Positions 9,546-53,301 of a DNA stretch of 64,000 nt are shown here, in pieces. Under the pieces are notes generated by a model, which saw only the letters and a list, made by a program, of their open reading frames with translations, ran no database searches and was not told where the DNA came from. How positions within the stretch are numbered: position 1 is the stretch's first letter; each line of letters starts with the position of its first letter. The position numbers were made by a program, and so were the translations under genes. The stretch covers positions 124,001 to 188,000 of the forward strand of contig NZ_SPNJ01000001.1 of assembly GCF_004563925.1 (NCBI RefSeq), in the 5' to 3' direction. Origin of the DNA: Herbaspirillum sp. 3R11. Lineage in GTDB: Bacteria > Pseudomonadota > Gammaproteobacteria > Burkholderiales > Burkholderiaceae_D.

Positions 9546-10658
9546 ATGGGATTCAATCGCCGCACCTTTCTCAAGCATGCCGCTGCAAGCGCCGTGCCAG
9601 TTTCACTGATGGGCCAGTCGTTGCCGGCGTTTTCTGCGCCGGCAGCGTCGGCCGCCGCGCCGCTCAAAGTCGGCGTGGTGCATGTTTCCGCCATTGGCGA
9701 TTATGGCTGGGCCAAGCAGCATGATCTGGCGCGCCAGGCAATTGATGCGGCTTTCCCGGGCCGGGCGCAGACCATGGCGATTACCAATATCTTCAATCCG
9801 CTCGACGCTGAACGCGTGTTCCGTGATCTCGCCGGGCAGGGACATCAGTTGATTTTCGGCACCAGTTTCTCTCACATGACGCCGATCATGAAGGTGGCGC
9901 GTGAATTTCCCAATGTGCGCTTCGAACACTGCTCCGGCTTGCACACGCTGAGTAACTTGTCGACCTTCGAGGCGCGCTATTATGAGGGTTCCTATCTCGC
10001 CGGCATCGCCGCCGCCTCGGTCAGCAAGACCAAGGTCATCGGCTTCATCGGCGGTTTTCCGATTCCCGACCTGATTGCTACCGCCAACGCGTTCCTGCTC
10101 GGCGCACGTTCGGTCGATCCGCAAATCGTCTGCAAGGTGGTCTGGCTCAATACCTGGATTGATCCTTCCAGAGAGCGCGAAGCTGCGGCCTCCTTGCTGG
10201 CGTCGCAGGTCGACGTGCTGCTGTCGACTTCGGGCGACATCACCGGCGTCAAAGTGGCGGAAGAAAAGGGCGTCTGGAGCGTCGGCTACGCCAGCGACTT
10301 CCGCAAGTTTGCGCCGAAAGGGCAACTGACCTCGTTCACCCTCGACTGGTCGGGCGTCTACGTCGACGCCGCGCGACGTGTGCTGGACAACAACTGGGTT
10401 GCCACTGATCGATGGGACGGCGTACAGGCGCGCATCGTCAAGATGGCGCCTTACAACCCGGCGATTCCCGCCGCCGGCATGGAGCGCCTGCGCGCTTATG
10501 AAGCGCGTCTGGCGGCCGGCACGGTGCGTCCGTTCACCGGGCCGGTGAAGGACACCAGCGGCAGGCAGCGGCTCGCCGCCGGCGCCGTACTGGCCGACGC
10601 CGACATCCGTAAGATGGACTGGTATGTCGAAGGCATACTTGGTGCTTTCACCAGCTGA
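9546..10658 (+). CDS. BMP/PnrA-family ABC substrate-binding protein (nucleoside-type), Tat signal
   Basis: BMP-family proteins are periplasmic receptors of ABC importers, and the characterised ones bind purine or other nucleosides. The 370-residue product has a twin-arginine signal (NRRTFLK, arginines 5-6) and Ala-rich cleavage region. Family blocks are KVGVVHVSAIGDYGWAKQHD, GTSFSHMTPIMKVAREFP, ARYYEGSYLAGIAAA, DPSREREAAASLL and TSGDITGVKVAEEKGVWSVGY. AAGGAG precedes the ATG by five bases. No permease or ATPase gene is nearby, so either it works with a transporter encoded elsewhere or it is a sensor. It leads an operon with the Rieske, oxygenase and GST genes (gap 38 bases), suggesting the binding protein and the oxygenase share a substrate. 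Confidence 0.85.
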   Translation: MGFNRRTFLKHAAASAVPVSLMGQSLPAFSAPAASAAAPLKVGVVHVSAIGDYGWAKQHDLARQAIDAAFPGRAQTMAITNIFNPLDAERVFRDLAGQGHQLIFGTSFSHMTPIMKVAREFPNVRFEHCSGLHTLSNLSTFEARYYEGSYLAGIAAASVSKTKVIGFIGGFPIPDLIATANAFLLGARSVDPQIVCKVVWLNTWIDPSREREAAASLLASQVDVLLSTSGDITGVKVAEEKGVWSVGYASDFRKFAPKGQLTSFTLDWSGVYVDAARRVLDNNWVATDRWDGVQARIVKMAPYNPAIPAAGMERLRAYEARLAAGTVRPFTGPVKDTSGRQRLAAGAVLADADIRKMDWYVEGILGAFTS

Positions 10659-10696
10659 TCCTTCTCATTGATGATTCAAATTCTAGGGAGCACTGC

Positions 10697-11380
10697 ATGG
10701 CAGTTTCACAAGCACTCGCCCTGAGCAATGCGGTGGAGTGCAATCAGGTCATCCTGGCGCGTGCACCGGAACTGGAAATGGCGCTCTGGCGCGATTCCAC
10801 CGGAGCGCTGCACGCCAACCAGAACCGTTGCCCGCACCGCGGCATGCGCCTGCATTTCGGCTTTGTCCGCGACGATCGCCTCAATTGCCTCTATCACGGC
10901 TGGTCCTACGACAATCAGGGCCACTGCAAATACATCCCGGCGCATCCGTCCCACACGCCATCCAACATGATCTTCCTGCAGACGCATGGGGTGCAGGAAG
11001 CGCATGGCGTCATCTGGAAAGGACTGCCGCCTGCCATGCCTGAGCGTGTCGCGGCAATGCGAAGCACGCCGGTGCGTTCGGTCTATGTCGCTGCCGCACT
11101 GGAGCAGGTGCGCTCCGCCATGTCGGTCGCGCTGTTTTCCGATGCTGATGGTTTGCAGCATGCCGGTATTGACGACAACGCCGGCTATTGGCTGCCTGCC
11201 GACGACTACGCGGCCCAACGCGGTTGTCTGTACGCCTTGCAGGACGCCGGAGAAGGAAACACCGGCATCCATCTCGCTGCGCTGACGCGGGCCGATGCGG
11301 CGGCGCCTTCCGCTTGGTTGCTGGCGCTGTCTGCGCAGCTGCAAGCGGTGCAATTGGATCTGGAAGGAACCGCACCATGA
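10697..11380 (+). CDS. Stand-alone Rieske [2Fe-2S] protein
   Basis: This 227-residue protein carries a complete Rieske site: Cys45-Pro-His47 in NRCPHRGMRLHFG and Cys64-Leu-Tyr-His67 in NCLYHGWSY, the pattern of ring-hydroxylating and N-demethylating oxygenases. After the Rieske fold (about residues 10-115) there is no mononuclear-iron motif. The remaining 110 residues are an unrecognised domain. GGGAGC lies six bases before the ATG. The stop overlaps the next start (ATGA), so the protein is made together with the Rieske-less oxygenase. I infer that it supplies electrons in trans to that enzyme. A ferredoxin reductase would still be needed and none is in the window. Confidence 0.8.
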   Translation: MAVSQALALSNAVECNQVILARAPELEMALWRDSTGALHANQNRCPHRGMRLHFGFVRDDRLNCLYHGWSYDNQGHCKYIPAHPSHTPSNMIFLQTHGVQEAHGVIWKGLPPAMPERVAAMRSTPVRSVYVAAALEQVRSAMSVALFSDADGLQHAGIDDNAGYWLPADDYAAQRGCLYALQDAGEGNTGIHLAALTRADAAAPSAWLLALSAQLQAVQLDLEGTAP

Positions 11381-12261
11381 CCAAAACCATCGACCCGATC
11401 GCCCTGCGCGAATGGATCGTCATCGGCGCGATCACCGATGTGCAGCAAGGCGTTCCCTATTGCACGCGGGTCCTCGGGCAAGAAATCGTCTGTCTGCGCA
11501 ACGGCGATTCGTTCGAGGTCCGGGAAGCCGGTAGCGATCGGCAGCCGCAGCGTCAGGTGCAGGTGCGCACGCGCTACGGCCACGTCTGGATCTGTTTTGC
11601 CGATTCGCCAAGGCCGATGATCGACATCACGGAATTCGACGATCCCCGACGCCGCATGATCACCTGGGGCGGCGTCTACGTCCGCACGTCTGCGCAGCGC
11701 CTGGTCGAAAACTTCCTCGACATGGGCCACTTCCCCTTTGTGCACACCGGTATTCTCGGCGCCGAACCCGTGACGGAAATCCGTGAATACAAAGTCGAAG
11801 TGCGGGCGGAAGACGCCGAAGTCTGGGCCACCGAGTGCATGTTCTACCAGCCCAAGGCATCGACGGCAGCCGATACCGGACGCGATACCGCCTACATCTA
11901 TCGCACCTCGGGTCCGTTCGTCGTGGTGCTTTACAAGACGGCGGAAGCCGAGGGTGAGTTCGACAATATCGGCATGCTGGTGCAGCCGCTGGATGAAGAG
12001 CATTGCCGCGTATTCGGTTACACCCTGCTGCTGGAAGCGGATACCACCGACACGGAGGCGCTGCATTTTCAGCAGACCGTGTTCCTCCAGGATCGCCTGA
12101 TCCTGGAGCAGCAGACGCCGCGCCGCATTCCGCTCTACGAGAAAAATGAAATCCCGGCCCGCGCTGATGCAGCCAGCATCGGCTACCGACGCTGGTTGCG
12201 CGCGGTAGGGATGCAGTTCGGCGTGTTGCCGCAGCAAGCGAAGGAAGGATCGCCGCCATGA
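11377..12261 (+). CDS. Rieske-type oxygenase catalytic subunit lacking its own Rieske cluster (NdmC-like)
   Basis: The 294-residue protein keeps the mononuclear iron centre of Rieske oxygenases: Asp115-x2-His118-x4-His123 in NFLDMGHFPFVHTG, and the C-terminal QDRLILEQQ with the probable third ligand Asp239. Its N-terminal 85 residues resemble a Rieske fold (WIVIGAI, VRTRYGHVWICF) but contain no CxH or CxxH cluster ligands. NdmC of the caffeine degradation pathway, which N-demethylates 7-methylxanthine, is known to have this condition and takes electrons from a Rieske domain on another chain. Length is close to NdmC (about 280). The start overlaps the upstream stop as ATGA, and the stop overlaps the GST start the same way. 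The substrate is inferred only: a purine or related N-methyl compound is plausible given the BMP receptor. Confidence 0.8.
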   Translation: MTKTIDPIALREWIVIGAITDVQQGVPYCTRVLGQEIVCLRNGDSFEVREAGSDRQPQRQVQVRTRYGHVWICFADSPRPMIDITEFDDPRRRMITWGGVYVRTSAQRLVENFLDMGHFPFVHTGILGAEPVTEIREYKVEVRAEDAEVWATECMFYQPKASTAADTGRDTAYIYRTSGPFVVVLYKTAEAEGEFDNIGMLVQPLDEEHCRVFGYTLLLEADTTDTEALHFQQTVFLQDRLILEQQTPRRIPLYEKNEIPARADAASIGYRRWLRAVGMQFGVLPQQAKEGSPP

Positions 12262-12887
12262 AGCTTTACGATTATGAAATCTCCGGCAGCTGCTACAAGG
12301 TGCGCTTGCTATTGTCGATGCTGAACTTGCCGTACGAGAAAGTGGCTGTCGATTTCTACCCCGGCAAGGCGCATCGCCGTCCGGAATTCTTGCGCATCAA
12401 TCCGCTTGGCCAGATCCCGGTGCTGGCCGATGAGGATGTGGTTCTGCGCGATGCACAGGCCATCCTGCTCTATCTGGCCGCGCGTTACGACACGGGCGCG
12501 ACCTGGTATCCCGCCGATCCGGCGACGCAAGGGCGCATCGCCATGTGGCTGGCGTTTGCCGGCGGCGAGCTGATGCAGATATCGGCGGTGCGCCTGCATG
12601 ACATGCTGATGGGCTATGAAGTGATCGATGCCGAGGCCGCGCGCAGCGCTGCATGCAAGGCGCTGGCCGTGCTTGACCAGCATCTGGCGGAGTGCGAAAT
12701 GCGCGGCCGGCAATGGATCGCGGCTGCACATCCGACCATTGCCGACATCGCCTGTTTCGCGTATCCGGCGCTATGCCATGACGGCGGCATCGACCGTTCC
12801 GCGTATCACAACGTCAATCGCTGGCTGCGCCGGGTGCGGGCTTTGCCGGGATTCATTGTGATGCCGGGGATACCGGCTTACGCCTGA
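12258..12887 (+). CDS. Glutathione S-transferase-like protein (NdmE-like position)
   Basis: The 209-residue product has the two GST parts. Residues 1-80 form a thioredoxin-like domain with NPLGQIPVLAD and RDAQAILLYLAARYD (the glutathione gamma-Glu site D-A/S). An all-helical domain follows with HPTIADIACFAY. Translation is coupled to the oxygenase gene by ATGA. In the methylxanthine N7-demethylase, the GST homologue NdmE (about 210 residues) is a structural partner that holds NdmC and NdmD together, not a conjugating enzyme. The same gene order and size here suggest the same role, as inference. Ordinary glutathione conjugation or dehalogenation remains possible. The gene ends three bases from the convergent LysR gene. 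Confidence 0.8.
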   Translation: MKLYDYEISGSCYKVRLLLSMLNLPYEKVAVDFYPGKAHRRPEFLRINPLGQIPVLADEDVVLRDAQAILLYLAARYDTGATWYPADPATQGRIAMWLAFAGGELMQISAVRLHDMLMGYEVIDAEAARSAACKALAVLDQHLAECEMRGRQWIAAAHPTIADIACFAYPALCHDGGIDRSAYHNVNRWLRRVRALPGFIVMPGIPAYA

Positions 12888-12890
12888 TTT

Positions 12891-13952
12891 TTAGTCTGAT
12901 CTTTGCAAGGAGGCCCCGACCGTTGCCGCGGCCGACGCTTTTGCCGCAACAGCGGGTACCTTGGAGGCGCCGCCGCTGAGCTGGGTCTTGCGGCCGAGCA
13001 CGACATACATCATGAAGGTCTCGGTGCCGGAAAAGTTGTCGGCCATCAGCTTGACGAAGGCCTTGAGCTTTTCCGAGGCGTGACGCTGCTTTTGATAGAC
13101 GCAATAGACCGGCAGGGTTTCTGACGCCCACTCCGGCAGTACCGGTGCCAGCACGCCGGCATCGACTTCCACGCGTGTGAAAAAGTCGGGCAGGTAAGAA
13201 ATACCGTAGCCATCAATGCAGAACGTCTTGTCCACCCAATAGTCGTTGCTTACCACCGTGCAGCCTGGAGCAACTTCCGCGCATTCTTGCCCACGATAGA
13301 AGCGCCATTTACCGTCGATCAGTTCATCGCTGCGCACATTGGTGCGATGGGCCGACAGATCGCCGGGATGCTGCGGTACACCGTGTTGTTTGAGGTAGGC
13401 CGGACTCGCATAAAGGCGGCAATGAAAGGAGCCGATACGCTTGGCGATCAGGTTGGGATGATCGGGTGGCGTGGTGCAGATGAAGCAATCGGCTTCATCG
13501 GGAAACACCGGATTCGGTTTGTCTTCCACGATGCGCAGATGACAGCGCACATTCGGATAGAGCGACATGTAGCGCTCGACCGCAGGCGCGACAAAGGTGG
13601 TGCTGAAATAATTGGTGGTCATCAGGTGTAGTTCGCCGCTGATGCCCTGGCTCAGATTCTGGACGTCGATCAGCACCGTTTCCAGATCGGTCTGCATGTT
13701 GCGCATCAGGCGTGAGCCACGTTCGTAAAGCAGGCGTCCCGCTTCCGTCAGCGTTGCTTTGCGCGACGTGCGGATGAATAGTTGTTGACCAAGCAAGTCT
13801 TCCAGCCGCGCCATCTGTCGGCTTAGCGTCGCCTTGGAAATCCCGCTCTCTTCTTCCGCTTGCGACAAGGTGCCGCAGCGTGCCACGAGGACGAAATTTT
13901 CTACCAGACGCAGGTCGATACCTAGTTCGCTGTATTTTTCGATTGCTCCCAT
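12891..13952 (-). CDS. LysR-family transcriptional regulator
   Basis: A 353-residue LTTR starting at the ATG at 13952 (MGAIEKYSELGIDLRL). A longer form from 14003 is less likely. The winged helix (about residues 14-75, FVLVARCGTLSQAEEESGISKA) leads into the periplasmic-binding-like effector domain. About 40 Ala/Ser-rich residues at the C-terminus are unusual. It converges on the Rieske/GST operon with only three bases between stop codons, so it is a candidate regulator of that operon, although LTTRs are more often divergent from their targets. No terminator is visible between the two. Confidence 0.85.
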   Translation of the reverse strand: MGAIEKYSELGIDLRLVENFVLVARCGTLSQAEEESGISKATLSRQMARLEDLLGQQLFIRTSRKATLTEAGRLLYERGSRLMRNMQTDLETVLIDVQNLSQGISGELHLMTTNYFSTTFVAPAVERYMSLYPNVRCHLRIVEDKPNPVFPDEADCFICTTPPDHPNLIAKRIGSFHCRLYASPAYLKQHGVPQHPGDLSAHRTNVRSDELIDGKWRFYRGQECAEVAPGCTVVSNDYWVDKTFCIDGYGISYLPDFFTRVEVDAGVLAPVLPEWASETLPVYCVYQKQRHASEKLKAFVKLMADNFSGTETFMMYVVLGRKTQLSGGASKVPAVAAKASAAATVGASLQRSD

Positions 13953-24029: not shown

Positions 24030-26564
24030 TTACAGCCAGAGAATTTGTTTGCGATAGGTCAGGTCGGTCAACAGCGGTTCGGCCGGGCCGGTGTGGAACA
24101 CCGCACCGCGTTCCAGCGCGAACACGCGGTCGGCCAGCGCCAGCACCAGGTCGAGGTTGTGCTCAACGATGACGATGGAGACTTCCTTGCGCAACTGATC
24201 GAAGACGGTGAACAGCTCCTGCACCACGGCCGGCGCGAGACCTTCAAACGGTTCGTCCAGCAACAGCAGCCTGACGTTGCCCGACAAGGCGCGCGCCACT
24301 GCCACCATTTGCTGCTCGCCGCCGGAGAGGAAGTCGGCCGGCGTATGCAGGCGTTCTTTCAGGCGCGGGAAGTAATGCAGGATTTTTTCTTCGCTCCAGG
24401 CGATGCCGTTGGAACTGTCGGTCTTGCGCGCCAGACGTCCCAGCGACAGGTTTTCCGCCACGGTCATGCCGGCGAACAGTCCGCGTCCCTGCGGTACGTA
24501 GCCGATACCGAGGCGCGCAATGTCGGGCGCACTGAGGCCGGCGATATCCTTGCCGTTGTAGCGGATGGCGCCCGAGGCAGGCTTGAGCAGACCGGTAAGC
24601 GCTTTCAACAGCGTCGACTTGCCGGCGCCGTTGCGGCCGAGCAGGGCGACGATCTCGCCTTCGCGCACTTCCAGCGTGGCGTCGTTGAGGATGTGGCTCT
24701 TGCCGTAGAAAGCATTGACCTTGTCGAAGGCCAGCAACTGCGGACGTTCCTGCGCATCGCCGGCGACGCGTCCGGTGACCGGCGGCGTGCCGGTACCGGT
24801 GTAGATCTCTTGCACGCGCTGGTCGGCGCGCGCTTCGTCCGGCGTGCCCGACATCAGCACGCTGCCCTGGTTCATCACCGTGACCTGTTGCGAGAAGCCG
24901 AGTACGCGGTCAATGTCATGCTCGACGATCAGCACCGGGATATTCTCGGCGATGATCTTCACGAGGCGCGACACGCGTTCGCGCTCGGCGGCAGCGAGGC
25001 CGGCCAATGGTTCGTCCATCAGCAGCACGTGCGGTTTCGATCCCAGCGCGATGCCCAGATCGACCAGCCGTTGGCCGCCGTAGGACAGCGCGCCGCCTTC
25101 GATCTGGTCGATGCCCTTGAGCCCGAGGAAGCGCATCAGCTCATCGGTTTCGGCGTGGATCTCGGGATAGCTGTCGATGTCCTTCCACATGTTGAAGCGC
25201 GAAGCATGGCGCGCCTGCAGCGACAGCCGCAGGTTTTCGTAGATGCTCAGGCCCTTGAACAGGTTGGTGATCTGGAACGAGCGCGCGAGGCCGCGCTGGC
25301 AGATCTGCCCCGGCGTCAGGCCCTGGATTTCTTCGCCGTTCAGTTTTACCGTGCCGCGGTTGGGCACGAACATGCCGGAGATCAGGTTGAAGGTCGTGGT
25401 CTTGCCGGCACCGTTGGGACCGATCAGCGCGTGGATTTCGCCGGCGTGCAGATTGATCTGCGCGCTCTTGACCGCCTGGATGCCGCCGAAGCGGATGTCG
25501 ACGTCCTTGACCTCCAGCACCAGTCCTTCTTGCGATGGCGGCTGCAAGAAAGCCGGCAGCGGTAAACCATCGACGATCTGGCGCTGGCTCATCGCCGCGC
25601 CAACTTCGGCTGGCGGGCGCAGGCGATTCTTGATCAGCTGCCAGATGCCGACCAGGCCGGTCGGCGAGAACAGGATGAAGCCGACGAAGGCGAGGCCGAA
25701 CCACAGCAGCCAGTTCTCGGTCCAGATCGACAGGCATTCACGGAACAGGATGTAGAACAGCGCGCCCAATGCAGGACCGAGGAAACTGCGCATGCCGCCG
25801 ATCACCACCATCGCCAGCAACTCGCCGGAGAACGCGACCGAGGTCGGCTCGGCCGAGGCGAAGCGGTGGTGGAAGGCCAGCAACGCTCCCGCGAGGCCGG
25901 TCACGCTGGCCGACACGATGAACATGATCAGCTTGTAGACGATGGTGCTGTAACCCTGGAAACGCGCGCGCTGCTCGTTCTCGCGGATCGCCACGATGGT
26001 GTGGCCGAACGGCGAGCGGATCACGCGTTGCAGCACGTACAGCACGATCAGCGCAATCACGCTGACGAAGACCAGGAAAGGAATCGACTGATCCAGATCG
26101 ATACCGGCCACCACCGGGCGCACCACATTGCCAAGTCCCGATTCGCCGCCGGTGAAATCAGTCCAGCGGAAGGCGATCGCAAACGTCAGCGCCGACAAGG
26201 CCAGCGTCAGCAGCGAGAAGTACACGCCGCGCCGGCGCAGGATCAGGAAGCCGACGATCGCCGCCGACACCGCGATGAAGGCGATCGTGAACAGCATCGG
26301 CGCCACGATCTGGCCGGGGAACCAATATTTCTGCGACAGCGCCGCCGCATAGGCGCCGACGCCGAACCAGGCGCCATGGCCGAACGAGGTCAGGCCGGTG
26401 TAGCCGACCAGCAGGTTCAGACCCATCGCCGCGATGGCGTAGATGACGACGTCGGTGGAGGACGACATGGTCAGGCCCAGCAGTTGCAGCAGGATGGGAA
26501 CGATGACCAGCGCCAGCGCGCCGATCCATAAAGTCTGATATTTGTTGTACATGTCCGCTCTCAT
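24030..26564 (-). CDS. Fused HAAT ABC importer: LivM-type permease + LivG-type ATPase + LivF-type ATPase
   Basis: This single 844-residue frame joins three parts that are usually separate proteins. Residues 1 to about 315 are a LivM-like permease (GLNLLVGYTGLTSFGHGAWFG). About 345-600 is a LivG-like ATPase with Walker A GPNGAGKTT (about 381), signature LSYGGQ and Walker B VLLMDEP (about 514). About 610-844 is a LivF-like ATPase with Walker A GRNGAGKST (about 641), LSGGEQQ (about 745) and LLLLDEP. All ATPase motifs look intact. The first ATG overlaps the livH stop (ATGA). With the other permease and the binding protein it makes an importer for an amino acid or carboxylic acid. LivM-LivG fusions are known, and a triple fusion is less usual. 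Confidence 0.92.
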   Translation of the reverse strand: MRADMYNKYQTLWIGALALVIVPILLQLLGLTMSSSTDVVIYAIAAMGLNLLVGYTGLTSFGHGAWFGVGAYAAALSQKYWFPGQIVAPMLFTIAFIAVSAAIVGFLILRRRGVYFSLLTLALSALTFAIAFRWTDFTGGESGLGNVVRPVVAGIDLDQSIPFLVFVSVIALIVLYVLQRVIRSPFGHTIVAIRENEQRARFQGYSTIVYKLIMFIVSASVTGLAGALLAFHHRFASAEPTSVAFSGELLAMVVIGGMRSFLGPALGALFYILFRECLSIWTENWLLWFGLAFVGFILFSPTGLVGIWQLIKNRLRPPAEVGAAMSQRQIVDGLPLPAFLQPPSQEGLVLEVKDVDIRFGGIQAVKSAQINLHAGEIHALIGPNGAGKTTTFNLISGMFVPNRGTVKLNGEEIQGLTPGQICQRGLARSFQITNLFKGLSIYENLRLSLQARHASRFNMWKDIDSYPEIHAETDELMRFLGLKGIDQIEGGALSYGGQRLVDLGIALGSKPHVLLMDEPLAGLAAAERERVSRLVKIIAENIPVLIVEHDIDRVLGFSQQVTVMNQGSVLMSGTPDEARADQRVQEIYTGTGTPPVTGRVAGDAQERPQLLAFDKVNAFYGKSHILNDATLEVREGEIVALLGRNGAGKSTLLKALTGLLKPASGAIRYNGKDIAGLSAPDIARLGIGYVPQGRGLFAGMTVAENLSLGRLARKTDSSNGIAWSEEKILHYFPRLKERLHTPADFLSGGEQQMVAVARALSGNVRLLLLDEPFEGLAPAVVQELFTVFDQLRKEVSIVIVEHNLDLVLALADRVFALERGAVFHTGPAEPLLTDLTYRKQILWL

Positions 26565-51356: not shown

Positions 51357-52232
51357 TCAGCCCAGGGTCTTGGAATAGCGGCGTTCCAGGATCCGGTTGT
51401 AAGTCATCATGATGATCAGATTGGCGACCAGCAGCACGATGGCGATCGAGGCGCCCAGCGGCCAGTTGAGCGAACCGAGGAATTCGTCGTACACGGTGGT
51501 GGCGACCATCTTCAGGCGGCGTCCGCCCAGCAGGCCGGGAATCGCGAAGGCGCTGGCGCTCAGGCCGAACACGATCAGGCTGCCCGAGAGCACACCGGGC
51601 GCGACTTGCGGCAACAGGATCCGGCGCAGCACGGTCGCTTGCGAAGCATTGAGCGACAAGGCCGCGTGTTCCACGGTCGGGTCCAGCCGTTGCAGCGCAG
51701 TCCACACCGGGATCACCATGAACGGCAGCATCACGTGCACCAGCGCCACCACGATCGCACCGGAGGTGTAGAGCATCTTCACCGGCGCCATGCCCAGGGC
51801 TTGCAGGGCGTGGTTGATGAGGCCGTCGGCGCTGAGCAGCATGCTCCAGCCGAACGCGCGCACCACCACCGACACCAGCAACGGCGCCAGGATCACGATC
51901 AGGAAGAAGGCCCGCCACTTGCGACTCATGCGGCTGAGTACATAGGCTTCCGGCGCGCCCACGATGACGCAGATCAGCGTGGTCAGTCCGGCGATCCAGA
52001 AGGTGCGCCAGAAAATGCGCAGGTAATAATCGTCGCCGAAGATCGCCAGGTAATTGTGCAGGTCATAGGTCGACTTGATGCCGACGCTGTCGTCGTAGCT
52101 GTTGAGCGCTAGCAGCGCGGTCAGCAGCAGCGGCACCAGCACCATCGTGGCGAACAGCAGCGTGGCCGGCGCCGTCAGGATATAGGGCAGCGACCGCTTC
52201 GGCTTGAGAGTGGAAGCAGCGCGGTCAGACAT
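51357..52232 (-). CDS. ABC permease, PotB type
   Basis: A 291-residue permease with six TM helices and the EAA loop SLNASQATVLRRILLPQVAPG. Its start lies eight bases inside the 3' end of the ATPase gene. With the PotC-type protein it forms the channel of a polyamine/opine-type importer. Confidence 0.9.
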   Translation of the reverse strand: MSDRAASTLKPKRSLPYILTAPATLLFATMVLVPLLLTALLALNSYDDSVGIKSTYDLHNYLAIFGDDYYLRIFWRTFWIAGLTTLICVIVGAPEAYVLSRMSRKWRAFFLIVILAPLLVSVVVRAFGWSMLLSADGLINHALQALGMAPVKMLYTSGAIVVALVHVMLPFMVIPVWTALQRLDPTVEHAALSLNASQATVLRRILLPQVAPGVLSGSLIVFGLSASAFAIPGLLGGRRLKMVATTVYDEFLGSLNWPLGASIAIVLLVANLIIMMTYNRILERRYSKTLG

Positions 52233-53301
52233 GCGCGCTCCGCGTTGATTGTGACTCGACTGCGCGCATGGCCGACGTCGGCCAGCGCAGCGACACGCGC
52301 TGGCCCGGCTGACAGGAAGTCTGGCCGTTGTTCTTCAGGATCACCAGGATGTCGCCGCAATCGGTCTCGAAGCGGTATAGCCATTGATTGCCGAGGAAGA
52401 AGCTGGAGGCGACCACGCCGCCCAATTGTTCTTCGGCTTCGGTACAGCATTCGATTTTTTCCGGACGGATGCACAGCGTGGTGCGCTCGCCGACTGCCAG
52501 TTCGGTGCCTTGCACTTCCAGCACATGATTGCCGACGCGCACGCCGGCGCTGCCGTCCCTGACCCATTCGACCGTGCCGGGCAAGAGATTGGCCTTGCCG
52601 ACGAATTGCGAGACGAAGGCATTGACCGGATTTTCGTAGGTCTCCAGCGGCTTGCCGATCTGCACCGCATGACCGGCTTCCATCACCACCACGCGGTCGC
52701 TCATGGAGAGCGCTTCGGATTGATCGTGCGTGACCATGATGGTGGTGGTGCCGACCTTGCGCTGGATTTCACGCAATTCGATCTGCATTTCTTCGCGCAG
52801 CTTGGCGTCGAGGTTGGACATCGGTTCGTCCAACAGCAGAATCGGCGGCTGGATCACCAGCGCGCGCGCCAGCGCCACGCGCTGACGCTGGCCGCCGGAC
52901 AATTCACGCGGATAGCGATGGCCGAATTTGTCGAGATGCACCAGCGCCAACGCCTGCTTGACGCGCTCGGCGCTTTCCGCTGCGCCAACCTTGCGCATCT
53001 CCAATCCGAACTTGACGTTGTCAGCCACCGTCATGTGCGGGAACAGCGCATAGCTCTGGAACACGATGCCCAGTCCGCGCCGGTTGGGCTTCTCGTTGGT
53101 GATGTCTCGACCGTTGAGCAGGATGCGTCCGGCGCTGGCTTCGACGAAGCCGGCGATCATCTGCAAGGTCGTGGTCTTGCCGCAGCCGGAGGGGCCGAGC
53201 AGCGAGACGAACTCGCCTTTTTCGACGGTCAGGTCAAGGTTCTCGACGGCGGTGAAATCGCCGTAGCGCTTGGACAGGTTTTCCAACTTGAGGAACGACA
53301 T
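52225..53301 (-). CDS. ABC importer ATPase, PotA type
   Basis: A 358-residue ATPase with Walker A GPSGCGKTT, the signature LSGGQRQRVALARAL, Walker B ILLLDEPMSNLD and the His-loop THDQSEAL. A C-terminal TOBE domain (about 280-345) is typical of Pot/opine importers. It energises the two permeases encoded after it. Confidence 0.93.
   Translation of the reverse strand: MSFLKLENLSKRYGDFTAVENLDLTVEKGEFVSLLGPSGCGKTTTLQMIAGFVEASAGRILLNGRDITNEKPNRRGLGIVFQSYALFPHMTVADNVKFGLEMRKVGAAESAERVKQALALVHLDKFGHRYPRELSGGQRQRVALARALVIQPPILLLDEPMSNLDAKLREEMQIELREIQRKVGTTTIMVTHDQSEALSMSDRVVVMEAGHAVQIGKPLETYENPVNAFVSQFVGKANLLPGTVEWVRDGSAGVRVGNHVLEVQGTELAVGERTTLCIRPEKIECCTEAEEQLGGVVASSFFLGNQWLYRFETDCGDILVILKNNGQTSCQPGQRVSLRWPTSAMRAVESQSTRSAHV

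Follow-up and report, generated by a model that had tools for sequence, protein, structure and literature searches.

Ordinary trimeric Rieske oxygenases pass electrons from the cluster in one subunit to the iron in its neighbor. The NdmCDE system of Pseudomonas putida CBB5 and Paraburkholderia caffeinilytica CF1 is built in another way. In one report (PMC4408171), NdmC is described as lacking a Rieske cluster, the glutathione S-transferase (GST) homolog NdmE as required for solubility and activity, and the whole as “very unique,” in that the Rieske domain has moved to the reductase and a GST is needed for activity; the same report mentions ndmCDE homologs in 18 further organisms, mainly Sinorhizobium and Mesorhizobium, without known function. 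A second paper (PMC10380055) presents NdmCDE as a 3:3:3 complex that demethylates 7-methylxanthine at N7 and releases formaldehyde, with NdmC as the N7-demethylase and the GST required for solubility, and names a 174-kb plasmid of P. caffeinilytica CF1 as the site of the caffeine degradation genes. According to a third source (PMC13237722), the structure of NdmCDE was still unsolved in 2026. Here, we describe an operon of Herbaspirillum sp. 3R11 on a stretch of 64,000 nucleotides, referred to as the window (contig NZ_SPNJ01000001.1, positions 124,001 to 188,000 of the forward strand; coordinates below count from its first letter). It encodes a separate small Rieske protein (RIE), an oxygenase without Rieske ligands (OX), and a GST homolog, which an earlier note, made from the letters alone, had likened to NdmC and NdmE. 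We put the probability that this is a separated-Rieske oxygenase of the NdmC/NdmE kind, N-demethylating a purine-like substrate, at roughly 60%.

RIE and OX divide the ligands of a Rieske oxygenase

RIE (10697..11380, forward strand, 227 amino acids) and OX (11377..12261, forward strand, 294 amino acids) are encoded in genes that share an ATGA stop-start overlap at 11377..11380. RIE matches PF00355 with 66 bits and carries the cluster ligands C45, H47, C64, and H67 that the earlier note had pointed out, all invariant in 40 aligned RIE sequences; its catalytic half is predicted to be shrunken and holds no iron motif. OX matches VanA_C with 74 bits. As that note had also read, it contains D115-x2-H118-x4-H123 without Rieske ligands: the motif is invariant in 41 aligned OX sequences, as is D239, probably the third iron ligand, while the cluster-binding block of the Rieske domain is missing and Pfam gave no Rieske match. 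Neither window protein thus combines cluster and mononuclear iron in one chain, as a canonical Rieske oxygenase does.

The same division was found in a scan of related loci, which took one genome per species and the best 80 of 566 relatives, so that all proportions below describe that sample; genes were labeled by their best BLAST matches to a reference set together with ligand motifs. Among RIE proteins of at least 195 amino acids, the Rieske motif is present in 62 of 62 and a D/E-x2-H-x4-H motif beyond residue 85 in none of the 62. All 99 OX proteins of at least 250 amino acids have D-x2-H-x4-H, and none of the 99 has a Rieske motif, the latter partly by construction since the label OX was assigned only to proteins without it. 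Both sets, like the GST family below, contain near-duplicates (e.g., L011 and L048 are one contig).

In the AlphaFold2 model of RIE (predicted local distance difference test [pLDDT], 91.7; predicted template modeling score [pTM], 0.88), residues 1 to 227 align to residues 6 to 289 of GxtA (6wnd_B; Z, 20.6; root mean square deviation [rmsd], 3.1; 224 aligned), catalytic domain included, and the model also aligns to NdmA (6icn_A; Z, 19.5; rmsd, 3.3; 224 aligned). The OX model (pLDDT, 91.5; pTM, 0.90) aligns to SxtT (6wn3_B; Z, 33.7; rmsd, 1.8; 278 aligned) and to NdmA (6icn_A; Z, 26.9; rmsd, 2.7; 266 aligned). Both proteins are therewith predicted to be whole Rieske oxygenase folds, RIE with the cluster and without the iron motif and OX the reverse, and these reciprocal whole folds are the new element that the predicted structures bring. 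They would most simply have arisen from a duplicated complete oxygenase, one copy then losing its iron site and the other its cluster. Frameshift damage to a single complete oxygenase is ruled out, because either half shows a full fold with ligands of its own and is under purifying selection.

Komagataeibacter nataicola from kombucha (L008:2935-9486) has two adjacent split sets accompanied by a reductase and by complete oxygenases resembling NdmA/B, as also seen in L044 and L047. The small Rieske protein of the first L008 set has Gly in place of the second Cys ligand, and the Rieske half may therefore have turned structural there.

OX groups with NdmC

The oxygenase tree comprises 96 rows, from which OX fragments shorter than 250 amino acids, the duplicate L011, and roughly half the loci with a separate RIE and no reductase had been omitted. 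It was obtained by a quick search without bootstrap, and support is given by the Shimodaira-Hasegawa-like approximate likelihood ratio test (SH-aLRT). NdmA/B, NdmC, NdmD, and NdmE anchors were assigned by order and domain on the caffeine plasmid of P. caffeinilytica CF1 (L123). All 72 sampled OX proteins and the NdmC of P. caffeinilytica form one group (SH-aLRT, 98), which stands next (93) to eight complete oxygenases of the window's own bacterial family, with NdmA/B-like proteins elsewhere (99). A block of ∼47 residues that holds the cluster ligands of the complete sister enzymes is missing at the same place in OX and NdmC. The earlier note had stated beforehand that firm grouping with complete Rieske oxygenases of another pathway would end its analogy; in this comparison with complete enzymes and NdmA/B/C, OX grouped with NdmC, and its tree position rules out that it belongs to a complete-oxygenase pathway. 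The NdmC of P. caffeinilytica belongs to the OX group but is on a long branch that the tree does not assign to any part of it; OX from fused and from separate loci mostly occupy different parts of the group.

In the Rieske tree (66 rows, 129 columns), the domains fused to reductases form one set (98, including those of L075 and L085), joined by the separate RIE of Herminiimonas and Variovorax (92). Since the fused Rieske domains form one set, a single fusion of RIE with a reductase is likely.

The GST homolog has lost the usual serine

The GST gene (12258..12887, forward strand) is joined to OX by a second ATGA stop-start overlap at 12258..12261, and its NdmE-like product matches GST_N_3 with 59 bits. 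Among the 12 best matches listed, the best ones outside Herbaspirillum are GSTs of other such loci (55 to 61% identity), and the best paralog in its own genome reaches 42%. At the Ser of the (E/D)S motif of active GSTs, which we take to be the glutathione-binding residue, the window protein has Ala. Across the GST family (n = 83), this site is Ala in 42, Thr in 23, Ser in 10, Pro in 5, and Ile, Leu, and Met in 1 each. The usual Ser is thus lost in 73 of the 83 rows, and it is kept in all 8 in-frame genomic paralogs, a control made up of 8 of the 11 other GST-like matches (L132, L133, and L134 were left out). Given that Thr could still serve, the hydroxyl is clearly lost in 50 of 83. Judged from the sequences, the loss would fit a structural subunit, as proposed for NdmE.

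A separate Rieske protein is the commoner arrangement

The earlier note had also remarked that the Rieske domain sits on its own protein with no reductase nearby, unlike in NdmCDE. This is real, and in our sample it is the commoner arrangement: a separate RIE was found in 63 of 80 loci versus a Rieske domain fused to a reductase, as in NdmD, in 11 of 80, and in 6 of 80 neither was within reach. Among the separate-RIE loci, 55 of the 80 have no VanB-type reductase in the stretch and 8 have a separate one. Ten of these 55 stretches are shorter than 18 kb, so that a reductase could lie farther off there, and L075 and L085, counted among the 55, are probably truncated fused proteins by their position in the Rieske tree. 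A GST is present in 54 of the 55 loci with a separate RIE and no reductase, in 8 of 8 with a reductase, in 11 of 11 fused loci, and in 1 of 6 with neither. Absence of the GST from the gene order in relatives was another finding that, according to the earlier note, would end its analogy; the GST is present in 73 of 74 loci with a Rieske partner, the exception (L085) being a 3.8-kb contig.

The RIE and GST genes overlap or nearly touch (≤5 bases) at 23 of the 63 separate-RIE loci, and at 20 of these 23 OX is on the opposite strand, an arrangement that would fit a direct RIE-GST partnership. In Herminiimonas (L048), the order is BMP-reductase-RIE-OX-GST-FrmA, that is, the window order plus a reductase and FrmA. 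As a further feature, a small acylphosphatase-like gene (e.g., L007:6905-7189 and L009:15240-15545) occurs in 39 of 63 separate-RIE stretches, with a distance to RIE of at most 300 bases in 36 of the 63, and is absent from all fused loci; the PF00708 match is barely above its cutoff in L007. The divided enzyme of this soil bacterium has similar counterparts in many rhizobia and their relatives.

Gene context in relatives points to purine N-demethylation

FrmA, a glutathione-dependent formaldehyde dehydrogenase, is encoded in 7 of 80 loci and in the Sinorhizobium meliloti and Komagataeibacter records, with 71 to 85% identity to FrmA of the caffeine cluster. Its distance to the closest gene of the set is 29 to 62 bases in L048, L104, L069, L095, L114, L080, and S. 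meliloti pSymA, 566 bases in Komagataeibacter (L008), and 1218 bases in Paracoccus (L047). An adenine deaminase gene adjoins in 16 of 80 loci, all with a separate RIE. A direct search found a xanthine dehydrogenase-like gene in 7 of 80 loci, including one (L101) where RIE was not within reach; looser clustering put the family in 12 loci. In 39 of 80 stretches, there is an amidohydrolase with an 8-oxoguanine deaminase-like reference as its best match. Taken together, the FrmA and purine gene context makes oxidative purine N-demethylation the best guess, with ring hydroxylation as its main rival. Where the earlier note had proposed a multisubunit N-demethylase or hydroxylase for a purine-like compound, the kind of system was borne out, while the substrate would follow from a gene context seen in some relatives and carried over to Herbaspirillum by analogy. 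In the window genome, FrmA is encoded elsewhere (87%).

One cluster of S. meliloti 1021 pSymA (L030:23882-40001 and L006:148-16876) holds three Rieske-less oxygenase paralogs, an NdmD-like fusion, and a BMP ATP-binding cassette (ABC) transporter together with GcvT, MetF-like, PurU, aspartate-glyoxylate aminotransferase-like, hydroxyacid dehydrogenase, and GlyA genes, with FrmA downstream. This is probably a one-carbon-harvesting demethylation pathway on the symbiosis plasmid. Ensifer also adds GcvT, MetF-like, PurU, and GlyA genes.

A shared reductase as the candidate electron source

When the Rieske-reductase of S. meliloti was used as a query over the 5.2-Mb genome, two strong VanB-type reductase matches were obtained at 41% identity (referred to as C9 and C7), besides weaker ones. 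The C9 reductase has 96% and 93% matches in the other two genomes that carry the operon. It also has matches of ≥77% in 17 of the 31 Herbaspirillum genomes that lack the operon, and as a dedicated partner it was rejected for that reason. The C7 reductase has an 86% match in carrier G104 and at best 43% in carrier G110. This distribution makes a shared reductase likely, with C9 as the foremost candidate. In a review (PMC12445004), reductases of such systems are described as moderately promiscuous.

Near a complete oxygenase and the C7 reductase of the window genome, an open reading frame (ORF) (L142:5485-6555) resembles a 2-oxoglutarate/iron oxygenase by eye, and a gene of the P. caffeinilytica caffeine cluster (L123:2971-3945) is annotated as a 2-oxoglutarate/iron oxygenase.

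The remaining genes of the unit and its conservation

Upstream of RIE, across a gap of 38 bases, lies the gene for a BMP/PnrA-type substrate-binding protein (9546..10658, forward strand; PF02608, 156 bits). The four coupled genes of the earlier note, their coordinates, reading frames, and the two ATGA junctions included, are all correct. The BMP protein has a twin-arginine-like start (RRTFLK), and its score with the twin-arginine translocation model is below the cutoff. Its best match outside Herbaspirillum is that of Herminiimonas L048 (52%), and its best NCBIfam match, a putative B6 binder, is far under the cutoff (42 of 400 bits). Three other BMP proteins are encoded in the genome. Convergent with GST is a LysR-type regulator (12891..13946, reverse strand; PF00126 and PF03466) whose start codon is not settled. 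It is 46% identical to the LysR of Variovorax L104 and 39% to that in the caffeine cluster L123, the next best being 27 to 32%, and it is retained beside the operon in all three Herbaspirillum copies; it is likely the regulator of the operon.

The five-gene unit is present at ≥87% in 3 of 34 Herbaspirillum genomes (its own, G104, and G110), in G110 among other flanking genes, and Herbaspirillum rhizosphaerae (L043) has an OX 87% identical to that of the window with the same neighbors. In comparison with two other Herbaspirillum genomes, all five genes are under purifying selection, with ratios of nonsynonymous to synonymous substitution rates (dN/dS) of 0.04 to 0.18 and intact frames. In another Herbaspirillum (L138), an oxygenase 32% identical to OX has a stop codon inside the matched stretch (G116:C272:7247-7939) and adjoins a VanB-type reductase (G116:C272:6310-7227).

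Proposed mechanism and alternative explanations

In the mechanism that we propose, the roles of cluster and iron would be split between two complementary, reciprocally degenerate subunits. Electrons would pass from NADH, through a VanB-type reductase encoded elsewhere, to RIE and would then cross the subunit interface to the iron of OX through the invariant Asp115. OX would hydroxylate an N-methyl group of a purine-like substrate, the methyl being released as formaldehyde. The GST would serve as a structural subunit binding both RIE and OX, BMP would capture the substrate or its nucleoside, and LysR would regulate the operon.

A number of observations weigh against this proposal, in which activity, ligand, and complex are all putative. 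The degenerate catalytic domain of RIE rests on the predicted structure because the sequence-profile test was weak: hhalign gave a probability of 38% against OX and 4% against the sister complete oxygenases (66% and 2%, respectively, for the matching part of NdmD-type proteins; 0 to 3% for the GST, amidohydrolase, and BMP controls, that for GST being 3%). Ser or Thr is retained at the GST site in 33 of 83 sequences. The S. meliloti query found no reductase in the window, where RIE was its only match, and at the three Herbaspirillum copies neither a reductase nor FrmA nor purine genes lie beside the operon. FrmA was found in 4 of 11 fused loci versus only 3 of 63 separate-RIE loci (L048, L104, and L047), so that the argument for demethylation is thinner for the separate form. 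As to uptake, no reference for a BMP-type ABC permease matched anywhere in the window, ABC ATPase references matched only the ORFs at 24030-26564 and 52225-53301 and none beside BMP, and the stretches around the two further Herbaspirillum operons contain no BMP-type ABC genes. In the trees, the window OX falls inside a separate-RIE set of 41 rows (97), all others of which are alphaproteobacterial, with OX of Herminiimonas L048 and Variovorax L104 just outside (87), and the window RIE is on a long branch and was not placed.

The same divided enzyme might hydroxylate the purine ring instead (e.g., at C8), the deaminase of the relatives then working on the 8-oxo product. The L007 amidohydrolase is indeed nearest to 8-oxoguanine deaminase (PDB 7ww2 and 3hpa), yet at 370 bits with a cutoff of 532 it is not an equivalog; adenine deaminase and xanthine dehydrogenase-like genes do adjoin in alphaproteobacterial loci, where FrmA is rare. 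Against this stand FrmA, which is no more than 62 bases from the set in seven loci covering both architectures (L048 and L104 among the separate-RIE ones), and the OX group's sole representative from a known caffeine cluster, the N7-demethylase NdmC. We regard ring hydroxylation as rather unlikely. A working split oxygenase for an unrelated N- or O-methylated nonpurine compound, with BMP and the purine genes of the relatives being incidental, would agree with the putative B6 binder as best NCBIfam match of BMP, with the saxitoxin pathway oxygenases as nearest solved relatives of OX, ahead of NdmA/B, and with the purine gene search beside the Herbaspirillum copies, which found none. The recurrence of purine genes within ∼200 bases of the set in relatives and the closeness of LysR to the regulators found in L104 and the caffeine cluster argue the other way, making a nonpurine substrate a lesser possibility still.

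It is also conceivable that the Herbaspirillum operon, acquired from a fuller cluster, has become nonfunctional through loss of the reductase and the pump. Its presence in only 3 of 34 genomes of the genus (its own counted) and the fuller gene order of Herminiimonas would suit such a relic. The purifying selection on all five genes and the two strong VanB-type reductases of the genome, one of them closely matched in the other carriers, make it very improbable. Descent from a Herminiimonas-like cluster via reductase loss was considered separately; the gene order fits and BMP is nearest to that of L048, but the window OX groups with the alphaproteobacterial set and not with L048, which leaves this descent undemonstrated.

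For the N-demethylating, separated-Rieske enzyme that we favor, a wider history can be sketched tentatively, as one that is possible without being the likelier course. The separate RIE-OX-GST set would be the older and more widespread form, derived from a duplicated complete oxygenase whose copies lost opposite halves of the electron path, while the GST gave up glutathione and became a clamp. A single fusion between RIE and a reductase would afterward have produced NdmD. The set would salvage methylated nucleobases in soil and plant bacteria, e.g., by deamination of 7-methylguanine to 7-methylxanthine and demethylation of the latter to xanthine, and the caffeine pathway would be a specialized offshoot.

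Comparison with known systems

Among the literature titles and abstract openings listed, none described a Rieske protein set apart in this way, the reciprocal folds, or the loss of the GST serine; several of the listings were cut short and most subscription journals lie outside that coverage, and a prior description is possible. The operon may offer a simpler version in which to solve how electrons cross between two proteins that replace one oxygenase and what the GST does. For many uncharacterized operons of rhizobia and related bacteria, in which plasmid records label OX “aromatic ring-hydroxylating dioxygenase subunit alpha,” methylated-purine breakdown becomes a testable hypothesis.

Among described receptor systems, the PnrA type shares the BMP domain with the window protein and differs by the BMP-type ABC ATPase and permeases encoded beside it, which are absent next to the window gene. 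SxtT and GxtA are the top-ranked solved structures for both OX and RIE, and they differ in having cluster and iron in one chain. The complete oxygenases of the same bacterial family (L012 to L018 and L020) adjoin the OX group in the tree but possess their own Rieske ligands. The fused NdmD-type loci of Sinorhizobium and Mesorhizobium have in common with the window the OX group, the GST, and a BMP-type protein, there a BMP ABC transporter, and differ by the Rieske-reductase fusion, by two or three OX in several of them, and by the one-carbon genes of S. meliloti and Ensifer. Compared with NdmCDE itself, the Rieske protein of the window is a free protein of 227 amino acids, whereas NdmD is a Rieske domain fused to a reductase, and no reductase, formaldehyde genes, or NdmA/B stand beside the window operon. 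In both, the oxygenase is Rieske-less, falls in one group, and lacks the same block; the Rieske domain is carried by a different protein; genes for BMP and LysR are nearby; and a GST partner, with Ala at the usual Ser in NdmE of L123 as well, is encoded with the oxygenase.

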